Positions 1-20,005 of a stretch of 21,036 nt of DNA are shown here, piece after piece (within the stretch, counting starts at the first letter, position 1; each line of letters opens with the position of its first letter). This DNA comes from Entrophospora sp. SA101 (lineage: Eukaryota; Glomeromycota; Glomeromycetes; Entrophosporales; Entrophosporaceae). The stretch is from the NCBI GenBank assembly GCA_958430865.1, contig CAUDNR010001280.1, positions 47,517-68,552 of the forward strand. Reading direction: 5' to 3'. A program made the position numbers and the translations under genes. The notes below the pieces were generated by a model. The model saw only the letters and a program-made list of their open reading frames with translations. It ran no database searches and was not told the DNA's origin.

Positions 1-2
1 CT

Positions 3-1175
3 GACAAAGAACAAAAACTAATCCAAATCCAAAATCAAATCAAAGCCCTCGAAACTGGAAGGATTGATCATTTACGAACTCAACTTAAAAATTTAGGTGA
101 TAAATTAACTAATTTCAGTGATACCAACATTATCACTTATCAAGAAACAATTGCTATTAGAACTTTGATTTACTTCTTAACTGATTTAGAAAAGGAGGGC
201 AAATTAGAAACTCCCCTTACGGCTACTGAAAAAGGATATCTCACTAAAGTAGAACAATTAGAGACTGTTCGCAATGCTCAACTTCCTACTTATGGCACTT
301 GACAAGGTTTAGGTACTAGTTTTCAAGAAAGACTAAATAATTGAGAAAAAAAAGAAGGAAGAAACCTAACCTCAAAAAGCATTATAACTTATTTTGATTT
401 ACTAAAAGTGAGTTAAATAATGCTCAGCAAACCATTGGTCTTAGTCCAGAAGAAGAAACAGAATTATTAGCGATTAACAATTACTTAACTGAACCAGAAT
501 AAGAAGTGAAAATCTTCGGTCAGTTTTCAAGATTGATGCTGATATTACTACTTCTTCAGTTCAAGAATGAAAAAATTATGGTGATAAAAAGCTCTTTAAA
601 AAAGATGAATTAGAACTAAAAAAAATTGCTGATATTCTGCTCAATTTAGAAGATAAAACTACTTTTTTCAATGAACTGAAAGAATATTTTAAAGATAAGC
701 AAGGAGTGCCAACTTTCCCTGTTGACACCACAGATGATTACCAAAAAACAGATTATTTCTTTACTTTATCTCCCCACTATGTAATTGGATTTTCAGCTAC
801 TTACCAAATTAAGCATGATAGTGCTAAGAAAAAAGAAATGGAAGACCAAATGACTATGGCTAAAAATGAGCAAAAACTAGGCTTAGACTTGACTAAATAT
901 GGGAATGGAACTGAATTCACTGAAGCTGGAATTATTAAATATTATGCGGAAGAATTAGGTGGAGTGAACCATCACTTTGCTCAACAAGGAAAAGAAACCA
1001 GTGTTCCTAAACCAGATTTCTGAAGGAGAAATAATCCTTCTGCTTGAGCCGCAGGAGGAGCATTACTCCTTCTTTTAGCTAGTTTAGGTTGAGCGATTTG
1101 AAAAAGAAAACTCCTTGCTCAATGATGAAACTCCCAACTGAACTAGAAGAAGAGGATGATGAAGATGATGATTAA
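3..1175 (+). pseudogene. MRE-like membrane protein gene, UGA=Trp, frameshifted, 5' partial
   Basis: Seen: coding-like sequence runs through three frames (3-416, then ~400-502, then ~505-1146), with the last bases 1134-1175 best read in a fourth segment. Nine in-frame TGA codons (300, 342, 568, 1021, 1045, 1090, 1099, 1123, 1126) sit where Trp is plausible, and I find no in-frame TGG. The start of the gene lies before the window. The N-terminal part is rich in Lys, Glu, Gln and Leu and looks coiled-coil. Near 1048-1098 there is one hydrophobic span (AAGGALLLLLASLGWAIWKR), followed by positive residues. The tail ends in EEEDDEDDD if a last one-base shift is allowed. Known: Mollicutes decode UGA as Trp. 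Inferred: a C-terminally anchored surface or membrane protein of a mycoplasma-related endobacterium. I do not recognise the family. The shifts make it a pseudogene unless they are sequencing errors. Mitochondrial origin is possible under the same code but no mitochondrial gene is recognisable. Confidence 0.7.
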
Positions 1176-1245
1176 TAATGATTTGATTGTTTATTCTGCC
1201 AGTCTTCTTTTCTTTCTTGGTTCATCATGAGCTGATGTTAAGGTT
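1165..1245 (+). CDS. 5' fragment of a second MRE-like ORF, cut at the junction
   Basis: Two ATG codons (1165, 1168) open a frame that overlaps the acidic tail of the preceding gene by about ten bases. A purine-rich AGAGG at 1151-1155 lies about ten bases upstream and could serve as ribosome binding site. The first residues are MMINNDLIVYSASLLFFLGS, a hydrophobic signal or membrane segment, followed by SSWADVK with Trp encoded by TGA at 1228. The frame stays open to TAA at 1276, but from about 1245 the DNA belongs to the dispersed fungal repeat, so only ~27 codons are native. Overlapping tandem genes with a Shine-Dalgarno-like site are a bacterial arrangement and support the MRE reading. Product unknown. 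Confidence 0.5.
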
Positions 1246-1436
1246 CATTTATTGCATATTATTTTCCTTTCTTCATAAGTAATTCTTTCTTTTCTTAGAT
1301 AAGTTTCCAGTGTCTGAGTATCATTTATTTTGAAAATGTAAGGAGCAATTTTTTCACCATGTTCTTTTTTTAGAATACTTCTAATAGTGCTGTAATTCTT
1401 AGGTTCCATGGTAGATCTGATGTAAATAAGTTTCAT
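1245..1436 (-). CDS. Small conserved ORF in dispersed repeat (copy 1), hypothetical
   Basis: The ORF begins MKLIYIRSTMEPKNYS and encodes 63 residues, basic and rich in Ile, Lys and Glu, with no membrane span or signal peptide. Copy 2 (13222-13515) shares its first ~55 residues with only two changes (His/Gln and Thr/Ala), although the DNA has about a dozen substitutions, mostly at third codon positions. That pattern is typical of a protein under selection. Compared with copy 2, copy 1 has lost about 12 bases near 1272 and has a different C-terminus. Upstream on the same strand (~1565-1500) both copies also contain a coding-like stretch, TKPDKVNIG, which may be an earlier exon. I do not recognise the family. 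Confidence 0.45.
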   Translation of the reverse strand: MKLIYIRSTMEPKNYSTIRSILKKEHGEKIAPYIFKINDTQTLETYLRKERITYEERKIICNK

Positions 1437-1566
1437 ATTAACTATTTTTACATAAGAGTAGTTCTATATATCACTTAAGATAACAAATTATAATCACATT
1501 ACAAATTTTGATCCCTGAAATCCTTAGTAACACCAATGTTCACTTTGTCTGGTTTTGTTGCAGCAT
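1250..1566 (-). repeat. Dispersed repeat, copy 1
   Basis: This block is clearly homologous to 13325-13666 over its whole length, with scattered substitutions and small indels. Both copies end on the plus strand at the same point, a run reading GTTGCAGYATGCCCCA, after which the flanks differ. On the left, copy 1 abuts the UGA=Trp bacterial-like segment. I see no terminal inverted repeats or target duplication for the block. It may be a fragment of a larger mobile element or of a multicopy gene. Confidence 0.85.
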
Positions 1567-2013
1567 GCCCCATATACTATATATATAATATATATATATA
1601 GTAATAAATAGAAATGAGACTACCTTGGCATGAAACATTACTAGTTTTTAACATCAACAACAAACTCTTTACATGAGTAAACAATTTTGTAAGAAACTTT
1701 TTTGGAATGGTGATATATTCAAGTAGTTATTCATGCAGGCTTCTATTATCTATATCTATTTTTATATATTTGCAATGTATTATTATTAATTTTTTAATTC
1801 ACAATTTATCCAATGATAAAGTTAGATTGGTAATTTATAGTTGAAGGTTGAGCATGCTACACACTCACTTGGCTCTCATTTGTTAATTTATTCATTCGCC
1901 TAAGTTCAAGATCTTGTAAAAAAGCTTGGACATATCAAATATTTATGTGGCTTATGTGATTTGTAAAACATAAAAATAAGAGAAGTATTACTTTATTATT
2001 GATTTGTCAATTG
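1567..2013. other. AT-rich intergenic stretch, no gene seen
   Basis: Contains an alternating TA tract at about 1572-1600 and otherwise AT-rich sequence without a credible ORF, RNA gene or inverted-repeat element. Confidence 0.6.
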
Positions 2014-4230: not shown

Positions 4231-6903
4231 ATGTCTAGTGATGAGCAAAAATATGACGATATTCCAAGGGATGTTATAAACAAAAGAATTCAATCTGAAG
4301 ATCAATTAGCAACAATTCGTTATGTTGGCCCTGTCCCACCTACAAAAGGTATATGGTATGGTGTTGAATGGGACAATATTTCAAGAGGCAAACATGATGG
4401 TTTACATGATGGTGTAAGATATTTCACGTGTAGGTTAGTTATACTACATAGTTATTATTGCTTTTATGTATTGGAGAGAGAAAAAACGATTACATTAATT
4501 GATTTATTGATTGATTGATTATTTTAAATAAAACAGTGTTCCAAATAGTGGATCTTTTATTAGGCCTTCTCCAAAAATACATTTTGGTCGTAGTTTTCTT
4601 TCAGCCATGATTTTAAAATACATTGACTTAGAATTATCATCATCATCATCATCAATGGTTAAAAAAGATTCTAATGATAATAACATTAATAGTAATAATG
4701 GTGGTGGTGACGATGGTGGTGATGGTGAATCATATGATGCACAAAAAGATTTGGATACAATTTATTGGGCCGGTAATACAAAAATAGAGGTTGAGGCTAT
4801 AGGATGGGAAAAGATTCGTAGAAAACAAAGGTTTAATAATTAAATAATTTTAATTTAATTACTAATAATAGTGAACAATAATTCTTATTTATTAACAAAC
4901 TACTTACATATATACTATATATATTATTAATTATAGGCAATTGGATAGATTGACAGAAGTAGGTTTATCTTTTGAACGAATTTCAAATGCAGGAAAGCCT
5001 GGAGAAATCGAAACGACTTGTCCAAGTAATATATATATTAAAAAATTTTACAAACAAATGAAATAATTTAATATTGGTAATTAAGTATAAAGTTCTTTAG
5101 ATATAATTGACTTGAATTTGTCAAAAAATCTAATATCTGATTGGGAAACTGTTGCTCGAATTTGTGATCAATTAAAAAAACTGCAGGTTTTAAGATTAAA
5201 GTAAGCTCGCTTATCTTCTCCTATTGATCAATTTCATTAATAATTTGACTAATTTTTTTTATTTGATTTTAGTTACAATAGATTTCAAGGGTTAAAAGTG
5301 GTTCCTGATTTTAAAATTTCATTTACAAATTTAAAAAATTTATCTTTGAATTATACTAGGATTGAATGGAAACAGGTTTTATTTCATACTAATTAACTAA
5401 TCAGTTAAAATGCAAATTATACTCGAAATTCTTATGATTTTTCTTCTTTATAGATTGAACTACTTGAACCATGTCTTTTGAATTTGGAAAATTTACAATT
5501 AGGTTTTAACAATATTAAAAATTTTGGAGATATTGATGGTGAAAAGGAAAACCAGATAAAAAAAAGCAAGATAAAAGGTTTTTCCAAATTAAAAACACTA
5601 AATCTTGAATCTAATATTATTGATAGTTGGGATGAAATTGCTAGATTTTCAGGATTACCACAGTAACTAATTAATTATTATTATCTATTTATATATATAT
5701 ATATAATTATTTACCAATAATAATCTTTTATCATAGGTTGGAAACACTTTTTATTAGTAATAATTTAATAAACAATATTTATTATCCTAAAGGAGTTGAT
5801 AATCAAGAGTTTCCAAAATTAAAATATTTAAATGTTAGCGAAAATAAAATCAATGATTGGCAAAATGTTAATGAACTTAATAGGTTTCCCTCATTAGAAG
5901 AGTTAAGAATTAAAAAAAATCCACTTTTTGATAGTAATGAATTTAATGAATTTTAACATATTGATGATTTTTATGATTATATTTTAATCGCCTTACAAAT
6001 CAACAACACTTATTTTTGTATCTATAATATAGGTATAAAAGCCGATGAAGCATACATTCTAATTGTTGGTAGAATTAAAGGATTAAAAATGATGAATGGA
6101 AGTATGGTAATTATAATCATTAATCATTATTAAAATATCTTTTCAATTTGCTAAACAACATTAAATCTTATGTATAGATATCATCTAGCGATAGAATTGA
6201 TACTGAAAGATATTATTTGAGATTATGCATCAAGGATTTGAAATCATCTGATGAAATAGAGAAACACCATCCTAGATTTAAAGAATTATGTGAAATTCAT
6301 GGCGAACCTACTTTTGATGATAGAAGTTCAAAAGCAACTAGTAGCATGTTGAAAGATAGATTAATAAGTCTGTATATTCATTATCATTATCATTGTCATT
6401 ATCGCTAAACGCTAATTAATTAATTACAATTCATGGATCAAAATATTTTGATCATAAAAAAATTTTTTTTATAGCTTTGACTATTACCCATAGAAAATCT
6501 CTTGATGAAGAGCCAATAAAAATAATATCAAAAAAACTTTTAGGTATTTTTTTTTTATAATAATTATTGTGAATAGAGATAATGATTTCTAATTCAATTT
6601 AAGTTTTATAATCTTATTAGGAACTTTAACTTTGAGAAATTTAAAAAATATATTTCAAAAATCATTTGGAATACCAGCATCACAACAAAGATTATATGCA
6701 ATTATTAAAGATGAGGTGTTATTTTATTTTATTTATTATTTATTTATTATTTAAATATAATACTTAAAATTTATTAAAAATTGTATTTAAACTAGACTGT
6801 AAAAGGCACTTCAATATCAAAATTTGAAATGAATGATGATTTGAGACAATTATCATATTATGATTTTATATCAGGAGATGAAATCATAATATTATCAAAA
6901 TAA
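4231..6903 (+). CDS. Tubulin-folding cofactor E (TBCE), 12 exons
   Basis: Splicing of 4231-4433, 4537-4830, 4937-5025, 5101-5200, 5273-5375, 5454-5662, 5737-5933, 6033-6106, 6178-6367, 6475-6543, 6621-6715 and 6796-6903 gives an uninterrupted 576-aa protein; all 11 introns are GT-AG and about 70-107 nt. Domain order is that of TBCE: an N-terminal CAP-Gly domain (residues ~15-85, motif GKHDG at 53-57 where GKNDG is usual), leucine-rich repeats from about 185 to 420 (for example CPNIIDLNLSKN), and a C-terminal ubiquitin-like domain (~487-576). TBCE binds alpha-tubulin and works with cofactors C and D to assemble or dissociate tubulin dimers in the cytosol. A low-complexity insert of Ser, Asn, Gly and Asp (~102-133) separates the first two domains. 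Length is a little above the ~530 aa of animal TBCE. No sign of damage. Confidence 0.95.
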
Positions 6904-12004: not shown

Positions 12005-12775
12005 TGGCATAGACTAAGGAAAATTATCAGCAAAGTTCATTTATTTGGTATTCAAGATGAAGCAGTAAGGGAGCAAATTAATTATGTTCTTAATGAAGAT
12101 GAAATTATAGGAAAAGGTCCTAATGGCACTCTTAGTATGATTTTTGATGGAATTAAGAAATTGAATAAAGGTGAAAAACATTTAAAGATTACTTGTGATA
12201 ATGCAGGTGGACAAAATAAAATAACACCACTATTTGGTTTTATTTATATTTGGTAATTTGTGGTTATTATGAAAGTGTTGAATTGAACTTCATGATTGCT
12301 GGACACACTAAATTTAAATGTGATGGCAATTTTGGGTTGATTAAAAAACTCTACAGAAGAACAAGAGTAGATTGTTTGGATCATGTGGTTGAGGTGGTAA
12401 AAAAGTCTAGTCCAGCAGGATTGAGTAGAGCTCAATGTTATGAAGGTGGAAAAGGTTTTCAATATTTAGATATTAAAGCAATTTTGGGAATTTATTTCAA
12501 GAAATTACCAAGTATACAAAAATATCAACATTTTCTTTTTGAAACATCTAATCTTGGTATAGTCAAAGCTCAGGAAACTGCTAATGGACCTTTTGTTGAA
12601 TTCAATTTATTGAAAACCAAGAAAGCAGATATTTTTGAAGAAATTAGAGCTTTATCTATTTTAGTGTTAACACCACCCCCTTTGGATCACAAAAGATAAG
12701 AATCTTTACCAGAATATTCGCCCATTTGTGAAAGATGAATACAAAAGATATTACTTGCCCAAGACCATTTTATAG
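12005..12775 (+). pseudogene. DUF7869-type transposase-like protein, truncated and frameshifted
   Basis: Reading 12005-12253, then 12250-12696, then ~12698-12772 gives one homology: LFGIQDEAVREQINYV, CDNAGGQNK, MIAGHTKFKCDGNFGLIKK, KKLPSIQKYQHFLFE, LTPPPL, then NLYQNIRPFV. The order CDN-GGQNK, GHTKF-D-FG-K, PPP-L, IRPFV is that of a multicopy eukaryotic family (DUF7869 in Pfam, as I recall), found next to transposon sequence and probably of RNase H-like fold. The N-terminal half of such proteins is missing. Two one-base shifts (near 12250 and 12697) break the frame, so no product is expected. The usual Asn after QNK is Ile here. It is probably a remnant of a DNA transposon, perhaps linked to the small ORF downstream in opposite orientation. 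Confidence 0.75.
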
Positions 12776-13283: not shown

Positions 13284-13515
13284 GTAATAGCACACTTTCA
13301 TTTTGTTTTCTTTTTCGAATATTTATTATTTTTCTTTCTTCTTGGTAAATTTCATAAGTAATCCTTTCTTTTCTTAGATAAGCTTCCAATGTCTGAGTAT
13401 CATTTATTTTGAAAATGTAAGGAGCAATTTTCTCACCTTGCTCCTTTTTTAGAATACTTCTAATGGTGCTATAATTCTTAGGTTCCATGGTAGATCTGAT
13501 GTAAATGAGCTTCAT
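13222..13515 (-). CDS. Small conserved ORF in dispersed repeat (copy 2), MITE-altered
   Basis: 97 codons starting MKLIYIRSTMEPKNYS, homologous to the ORF at 1245-1436. The copies differ at about a dozen bases over the shared part but at only two residues, which suggests protein-level selection. Residues after ~77 come from MITE C. Removing the element together with one 8-mer would leave a frame ending about 15 codons later in a Lys-rich tail (stop near 13100). A coding-like segment with TKPDKVNIGITKD lies upstream on the same strand (13665-13595) and may be an earlier exon. Family not recognised; no membrane span. Confidence 0.5.
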   Translation of the reverse strand: MKLIYIRSTMEPKNYSTIRSILKKEQGEKIAPYIFKINDTQTLEAYLRKERITYEIYQEERKIINIRKRKQNESVLLLYMKSKLFQPVANLVEIGSK

Positions 13516-13666
13516 ATTAACTATTTTTATATAGAGGCAATTCTATATATCACTTAAGATAACAAATGGAAGATTTTAATAATCACATTACTAAATTTTG
13601 ATCCATGAATCTTTGGTAATACCAATGTTCACTTTGTCTGGTTTTGTTGCAGTATGCCCCATTTAT
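13325..13666 (-). repeat. Dispersed repeat, copy 2
   Basis: Homologous to 1250-1566 and about 25 bp longer through two small insertions (near 13345 and 13567). Its right edge coincides with that of copy 1. The left flank contains MITE C, so the original left limit in this copy cannot be fixed. Confidence 0.85.
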
Positions 13667-13888
13667 TATATGGGTAAAACTTTTAATTTTTTGATATTTT
13701 GATTGTATACTAAAATGGGTAAGAGGAAAAATGATATTTGCTTAAAAGGGTAAAAAAAAATATGATGTTATCCATCCGTAGATGTTATTTCCTTCTAAAT
13801 GATATATATATCCAAATTTAAATGGTAATGTTGATTGATGATAAATATGTTTATTTATCATGAAGGTCCTATACTCAAAAGTCAATCA
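13667..13888. other. AT-rich intergenic stretch
   Basis: No gene supported. Two short ATG frames (near 13671 and 13723) stop within a dozen codons. Confidence 0.4.
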
Positions 13889-19299: not shown

Positions 19300-20005
19300 G
19301 TTACAATATAACAAATGTTGATTGTGATTTTTTCATCACTGGTATTTGTTACCTTCAAAGACCTCTCTGTACCAATAAACTAGATATATTATACATTCCA
19401 TACTCAAAGTTGGAAATAATGTCTCTCTTTTTCACTGACTAGTAGCATTTTGAAAAATGTGTTTTTATTATATCTGTTACACTTTCAGCAATTTTTGATG
19501 GTGACGTTTTCATCAATGGTGTTTGTTACCTTCAAAAATCTCTCTGTACGATAAACTAAATATATTATACTATTCCATACTCAAATTTGGAAATGATATC
19601 TCTCTTTTTCACTGACTAGTAGCATTTTGAAAAATGTGTTTTTATTATATCCGTTACACTTTCAGCAATTTTTGATGGTGACGTTTTCATCAACGGTGTT
19701 TGTTACCTTCAAAATTCTCTCTGTACCGATAAACTAAATATATTATACTATTCCATACTCAAAGTTGAAAATAATACCTCTCTTTTCACTGACTAGTAGC
19801 ATTTTGAAAAATGTGTTTTTATTATATCCGTTGCACTTTCAGCAATTTTTGATGGTGACGTTTTCATCAATGCTGTTTGTTACCTTCAAAAATCTCTCTG
19901 TACTGATAAGCTAGATATATTATACTATTCCATGCTCAAAGTTGGAAATGATCTCTCTCTTTTTCATTGACTAGTAGCATTTTGAAAATACGATTTTATT
20001 TATTG
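19300..20005. repeat. Tandem array, four units of 177 bp
   Basis: The landmark TGTTACCTTC recurs at 19347, 19524, 19701 and 19878, a constant period of 177 bp. Other landmarks (GACTAGTAGCATTTTGAAAA, TTTGATGGTGACGTTTTC) recur in register. The inner units differ by only a few percent; the first ~50 bp and the last ~20 bp are more diverged, as usual at array edges. The unit is AT-rich with no conserved ORF. Unit length is near that of nucleosomal DNA plus linker, but four units are too few to call a centromeric satellite. Confidence 0.95.

Follow-up and report, generated by a model that had tools for sequence, protein, structure and literature searches.

Evidence that a transposon clade inserted many times into the nuclear DNA of Entrophospora sp. 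SA101 has been kept functional in a code that reads UGA as tryptophan

Introduction

How does a gene written with UGA for tryptophan come to lie on a contig of the glomeromycete Entrophospora sp. SA101, among genes that follow the standard code? The question is raised by the left edge of the window, the 21,036-nucleotide stretch of DNA analysed here (G000:C1061:47517-68552, from a 101-Mb assembly that comprises 2123 contigs). Ten in-frame TGA codons and no TGG over ~1.2 kb had led a sequence-only reading to propose a gene of Mollicutes-related endobacteria (MRE, Candidatus Moeniiplasma), joined to fungal DNA at 1200-1300 either by transfer to the host or by an assembly chimera. Further to the right, an ORF with a CAP-Gly domain (4231-4515, E 6.8e-19) is written in the standard code. 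According to Longley et al. 2023 (PMC10507103), MRE genomes contain fungal genes and assemblies of Glomeromycotina contain MRE sequences; according to Longley et al. 2024 (PMC11423566), most MRE, those of Gigasporaceae excepted, do not follow the phylogeny of their hosts. A search of the two main texts turned up no mention of transposons or transposases.

Results

A degraded element copy at the start of the window

Read with code 4, the first 1.15 kb of the window yields a protein whose open pieces hold ten TGA codons and no TGG, as had been seen at first sight. In an alignment made by eye, nine of the ten TGA fall on tryptophans of an intact relative, P0001 (residues 709, 723, 799, 950, 958, 973, 976, 984 and 985), and the tenth, near 391, lies in the overlap of two frames. 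The reading passes through three frames, with 3-413 in frame 3, the part up to 499 in frame 2 and the part up to 1143 in frame 1; the acidic tail ELEEEDDEDDD and, at 1173-1178, TAATAA are back in frame 3. Since intact relatives read this stretch as one ORF, what had been proposed here as a second, overlapping gene bearing a Shine-Dalgarno-like site is the same gene continued after frameshifts. The window copy of this UGA-rich gene, hereafter the cargo gene, is a frameshifted pseudogene. Homology with other copies, once these are oriented, passes the supposed join and continues to ~1573 (~1573-1598), where it stops at a common inverted-repeat end, and we read window 1-1573 as the right part of a degraded DNA transposon insertion, not a one-off join. 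The features of this copy and of a second, deleted one further right are as follows:

1 to 1178, plus strand: 3' part of the cargo gene, broken by frameshifts, corresponding to P0001 residues 610-987 plus the tail (full gene ~1000 codons, UGA=Trp)
1020 to 1140, plus strand: C-terminal membrane-anchor segment of the cargo
1191 to 1436, minus strand: small ORF at the right end of the element (MKLIYIRSTMEPKNY...PRKKRRLAE), with an in-frame TGA in the window copy
1536 to 1573, minus strand: right inverted-repeat end, ATGGGGCATGCTGCAACAAAACCAGACAAAGTGAACAT on the minus strand; beyond it the DNA differs between copies
12032 to 12774, plus strand: transposase C-terminus (DUF7869) of the second, deleted copy, frameshifted
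13323 to 13671, minus strand: right end of the second copy, with its inverted-repeat end at ~13625-13662

The coding status of the small right-end ORF is ambiguous, because several other copies have CGA in place of its TGA. No UGA-rich gene lies between the two parts of the second copy. Directly left of the window is a run of 5338 N, beyond which 797 aligned bases match the left part of other element copies; the window copy would be ~7.7 kb long if that run has its true length; N runs in this assembly may be gaps. The C-terminal 222 residues of the window cargo were modelled (mean pLDDT 63) as a helical chain whose last helix is long, and the best hit of a PDB fold search with this model had E 3.4. 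Scanning the window for Rfam families and tRNAs gave no result.

Other repeats lie nearby. An apparent small inverted-repeat element, which by eye is bounded by GTGCAGGACACCTAATCCCGCAACTT and the inverse of that sequence, occupies window ~2010-2490, and a 65-base piece recurs on C185 and C1739. At 19395-20003 a 177-base unit is repeated three times in tandem (76 and 93% when set against the reference copy), and 77 bases of the unit occur four times. Left of the window on C1061, Ty3-type gag and pol ORFs (named by eye; L009:7439 to L010:1107) share a frame and are separated by a single TGA, a layout that would suit production of pol by read-through.

Element ends and insertions

The left end of the element was observed in four copies, and its two ends match in inverted orientation over ~20 bases (left AAAACCTACAAAGTGAACAT; right, in reverse, AAAACCAGACAAAGTGAACAT), the right end carrying ~17 further bases that were not found on the left. 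The same right end is followed by eleven different flanks, none of which has an N within its first 80 bases. A first look at the whole assembly gave ~1430 candidate right ends, and all 40 of the 40 that were scored match, which suggests amplification inside the nucleus. Where they are readable, the flanks of cargo copies carry genes of fungal type that follow the standard code (by eye), and bacterial gene density was not seen in the 2 kb beside five sampled transposase copies. Not all insertions are independent, since C185 and C1739 have common flanks, as in part do C313 and C1798. No clear target-site duplication was found in flanks inspected by eye, among which only C1061 offers both ends and flanks in one orientation, with an N gap inside. 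In C313 and C1798 the left part of the element is inverted and lies ~7 kb from the remainder, alike in both contigs, perhaps as the result of an inversion that ran through the element and was later duplicated.

The cargo gene family

The assembly yields 18 DNA matches to the first 1260 bases of the window, eight of which, besides the window itself, extend over all 1260 at 77-91%. The protein search also gave 18 matches, on 13 contigs (13 loci, not all independent given the flanks common to C185/C1739 and partly to C313/C1798); all such counts are lower bounds. Eight of the 13 loci are open over 994-1025 codons when UGA is read as tryptophan, each with 15-19 TGA, 2-5 TGG and no internal TAA or TAG, at amino-acid identities of 33-100%. 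With 18 DNA matches and eight intact ORFs of ~1000 codons, the observation goes far beyond chance, and the code that had been proposed from the window alone is borne out. The intact copies have in common the start MTFNKND, the TAATAA end and a leader AGGAAGT (AAGAAGT in one copy) six bases upstream of the ATG. Among the other loci, C313 has one frameshift, C1289 (beside N) and C1744 are partial, and C1424 and the window copy are broken.

TGA and TGG swap at several tryptophan columns of the cargo, and six such columns are TGA in all eight intact copies. In the membrane-anchor segment, columns 999, 1022, 1033 and 1034 are TGA in every intact copy and column 1007 in seven, the eighth having TGG. 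Selenocysteine at TGA was rejected because TGA aligns with TGG, and stop-codon editing because the eight intact copies hold no TAG. Differences were present in 27 of the 28 cargo pairs, for which dN/dS lies at 0.30-0.53 (Nei-Gojobori under code 4, computed pairwise, the pairs being non-independent), and a neutral simulation under a simple substitution scheme, run for four cargo pairs, leads one to expect an average of 8.6-31 stops per lineage.

The cargo is a predicted coiled-coil, tail-anchored protein of ~1000 residues, for which searches of Pfam, NCBIfam and PDB sequences gave no relative. When copies are compared with C185, blocks of 99-100% identity adjoin blocks of 45-75% within the gene, which is thus a mosaic; in the same comparison most of the transposase part keeps to 87-100%, and the right end to 75-100%. 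Mosaic genes are known from recombining surface-protein families, which we offer as an analogy. From the anchor, the acidic tail and the block-wise variation one may guess at a membrane-anchored surface or host-interaction protein. Between the transposase stop and the cargo start, ~113 bases (L012:8697-8809, minus strand) are 99-100% identical among the copies that have them, C1010 keeping only the last ~45-70; the stretch is conserved above the neighbouring genes, and may be a regulatory stretch or a recombination anchor.

The transposase

Upstream of the cargo the element carries a gene with a DUF7869 domain (PF25273), the Pfam profile scoring 62.4 bits for P0010 and 31.9 bits for window 12250-12696 at a curated cut-off of 26. 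The tryptophan of the motif KL-W-HQL is TGA in all four copies read and that before xQNVH in all three, and three further tryptophans are TGG or TGA. Across 15 aligned pieces the tryptophan columns hold 11 TGA, 10 TGG and 1 TTT, and the remaining columns 6 TGA, 6 TAA and 2 TAG. In a search of the whole genome (77 listed matches, derived from 74 scored of 1573 candidates) no listed match was free of TGA, 41 having TGA alone and 36 TAA or TAG as well, with totals of 235 TGA, 23 TAG and 70 TAA. Random nonsense mutations were rejected on the excess of TGA over the other stops and on its placement, 11 at tryptophan columns and 6 elsewhere.

Transposase dN/dS, likewise Nei-Gojobori under code 4 from non-independent pairs, is 0.06-0.62 in 22 pairs, always below 1, with a median of 0.24; 9 of the 22 lie at or below 0.15, and the 13 at 0.21-0.62 include several that involve the broken C1424 copy or pieces of fewer than 190 codons. 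Four copies, three on C1551 and one on C77, have equal stop counts including one TAA, a hint, if the TAA is assumed to be the same, that an already broken copy has spread; dead copies may have been moved in trans. Annotation elsewhere has met the same UGA, to judge by 105 related database proteins, many of them from metagenomes, 28 of which end internally, 19 of these exactly one residue before a conserved tryptophan; other related proteins skip conserved tryptophan sites as though these had been spliced out (by eye). A structure model of the transposase, based on 39 of the 105 relatives, was poor (mean pLDDT 58.9), and a PDB fold search with it gave E of 0.36 or more at best, Tn5 and RNase H being among the matches.

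The code of other nuclear genes

The genome also contains another DUF7869 clade, distinct from that of the element. A search with a member of this second clade, P0059 of Rhizophagus irregularis, gave 69 rows, many from the UGA clade and 13 without a stop, and three of these 13 that were read out are ORFs of 608-624 codons with 7-8 TGG and no TGA. The inverted-repeat motif of the element was not found in ~2.5 kb around each of these three. A tree splits the two clades along a branch of 1.13 with support of 100/100 and, because the tool warned of long branches, is used for this split only.

For chitin synthase, a fungal family that contains tryptophan, TGA occurred in 3 of 51 matches, and at the few checkable paralogous tryptophan positions of other nuclear ORFs there were 5 TGG, 5 other residues and no TGA. 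A first ORF control (62 TGA, 35 TGG, 38 other) had contained element ORFs and was replaced, and a kinase control was dropped because it proved to be a transposase piece. The nuclear genes of this fungus seem not to use UGA for tryptophan. The nuclear ORFs used for codon usage had been picked for being open under the standard code, so that their absence of TGA is partly by construction. GC3 is 0.20 in cargo and transposase, 0.20-0.21 in these nuclear ORFs and 0.26-0.36 in three bacterial operons (below), so that MRE-like codon usage was not found in the element; RSCU correlations are likewise higher with nuclear than with bacterial genes (transposase 0.94 against 0.83, cargo 0.90 against 0.86). 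Scans of 32 loci gave no tRNA-Trp, and a pattern search for tRNA-Trp(UCA) gave no clear nuclear tRNA, the CCA control pattern giving none either.

Endobacterial DNA in the assembly

A search with the RpoB family found three full-length loci with TGA only, each followed by an rpoC-like ORF and two of them preceded by an rplL-like ORF (rpoC and rplL named by eye):

C1799:20000-26000 (L032): rpoB-rpoC operon, TGA=Trp, 13 TGA in rpoB
C555:21000-27000 (L033): rpoB-rpoC operon, TGA=Trp, 12 TGA in rpoB
C2074:36000-42000 (L034): rpoB-rpoC operon, TGA=Trp, 8 TGA in rpoB

Mollicutes-type bacteria thus appear to be present in the sequenced material, the contigs being called bacterial from rpoB (Pfam) and TGA use. 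The three operons differ and represent at least three endobacterial lineages that were sequenced along. Two short TGA-bearing RpoB pieces also occur on C459. An ABC-transporter family search for further bacterial contigs gave 19 scored matches, few with TGA and none on element contigs.

The link to MRE was upheld in so far as Mollicutes-type rpoB DNA is in the assembly, but neither a homolog with an MRE name nor a copy on the MRE-type contigs came to light. Cargo and transposase had no match on C1799, C555 or C2074, and short-word, non-exhaustive scans of GTDB contigs, IMG/VR, phage and plasmid records found no relative. Among the matches listed, no protein bears an endobacterial name, most metagenome matches being nameless.

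Relatives in other fungi

The cargo protein finds its best named relatives in two arbuscular mycorrhizal fungi, as gene models from Entrophospora sp. SA101 and E. candida, and the family also occurs in gene models of Funneliformis and Dentiscutata, which have long near-identical stretches in common. Transposase gene models are identical, gaps excluded, at 368 of 409 aligned residues between Ambispora and Diversispora, 258 of 306 between Gigaspora and Entrophospora, and 258 of 274 between Geosiphon and Ambispora. The last two belong to one order; the hosts in each of the other two pairs are distantly related. Such near-identity fits transfer between hosts, as MRE do, and other transposon routes could also produce it.

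Discussion

Conservation, selection and the TGG-using controls make it very probable that the transposon clade to which the window copies belong, with its many insertions in nuclear DNA, has been kept functional in a code where UGA is tryptophan. Its two main genes in that code are a DUF7869-type transposase and a coiled-coil, tail-anchored cargo. Passage through endobacteria is the best explanation, because the three UGA=Trp rpoB loci show that endobacterial DNA is at hand. The transposase clade is related to the ordinary DUF7869 transposons of the fungal nucleus, one member of which most likely entered a Mollicutes-related endobacterium and adapted to its code; the cargo would have been acquired or have evolved there, and the element would then have spread with the bacteria between fungal hosts, repeatedly inserting into host nuclear DNA. 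Because the GTDB, IMG/VR, phage and plasmid scans found no relative and no listed match carries an MRE name, the origin in MRE is something we infer, as are translation in the endobacterium and movement between bacterium and nucleus.

We give a bacterial stage an even chance and no better, because no copy was found on the contigs known to be bacterial, the codons are nuclear-like and there are ~1430 candidate right ends, a number above what arrival of each from a bacterium would lead one to expect, all of which makes decoding in the nucleus a serious rival. Somewhat less probable still is a transposon that shuttles between bacterium and nucleus, with genes selected under the code of the bacterium, UGA=Trp, and insertions that pile up in the nucleus, and that has spread across fungal orders.

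That the element lives in the fungal nucleus and has UGA decoded as tryptophan there, by a suppressor tRNA, element-specific recoding or editing, is a weaker but real contender. To the codon usage of cargo and transposase, the very many right ends and the want of a copy on the bacterial contigs identified (C1799, C555, C2074) it can add the four copies with equal stop counts including TAA, which hint at the spread of a broken copy; against it stand the rarity of TGA in chitin synthase (3 of 51 matches), the paralogous tryptophan positions checked (TGG 5, other residue 5, TGA never), the TGG-only genes of the other DUF7869 clade and the failure to find tRNA-Trp in the 32 loci scanned.

We know of no mitochondrial transposon of this kind, and we consider it improbable that the UGA=Trp stage was the fungal mitochondrion, from which nuclear copies derived. 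UGA can mean tryptophan in fungal mitochondria, according to PMC7082362, but the AGGAAGT that precedes the cargo ATG by six bases would fit bacterial initiation better, weak as that sign is in AT-rich DNA. More doubtful still is old endobacterial DNA that has been dead since its transfer, a nuclear transposon having done no more than copy it: in its favour are the broken state of the window copy and of C1424 and the one frameshift in C313, but eight copies are intact despite up to 67% amino-acid divergence, dN/dS is well below 1 even for copies ~1% apart, and the transposase is written in the same UGA=Trp code. Transfer of a single endobacterial gene that then lay dead, one of the two original proposals, was rejected in view of the eight intact copies under purifying selection and of that same transposase. 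The other, an assembly chimera of bacterial and fungal contigs, is scarcely credible, for although the window starts right after the 5338-base N run and N runs lie near several other copies, the same right end stands beside eleven different flanks and annotated relatives exist in several other fungal assemblies.

If the bacterial route is true, this is a natural bacterium-to-nucleus transposon and a path for gene flow between endosymbiont and host; otherwise, the fungus decodes UGA for the element by some route not yet described. Gene models in these fungi will be wrong where annotation stopped at, or spliced around, the UGA codons. A search of the open-access literature found nothing like a UGA=Trp element clade with nuclear insertions, nor any paper that names DUF7869, Moeniiplasma together with a transposase, or Entrophospora together with SA101, and we know of no described counterpart to a nuclear-inserted element clade kept functional in a code foreign to the surrounding genes.

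Three known systems come closest. Genes of Mollicutes-related endobacteria share with the element the UGA=Trp code and residence in such hosts, and PMC10507103 reports gene exchange between MRE and fungi; unlike them, the element lies in fungal DNA, has no MRE-named homolog that we could find and has a GC3 below that of the three MRE-type operons here. The DUF7869 transposon-like genes of Glomeromycotina (P0059, Rhizophagus irregularis) share its domain and, by eye, the motifs YDWAQNV, DLC..C and GHTKF.CD, but form a separate clade, of which the three members sampled use TGG and not TGA. Finally, DNA of the NUMT and NUPT type, which consists of random, decaying fragments, is like the element in being foreign-code DNA in a nucleus, whereas the element ends at fixed points, is present in many copies and carries ORFs under selection.
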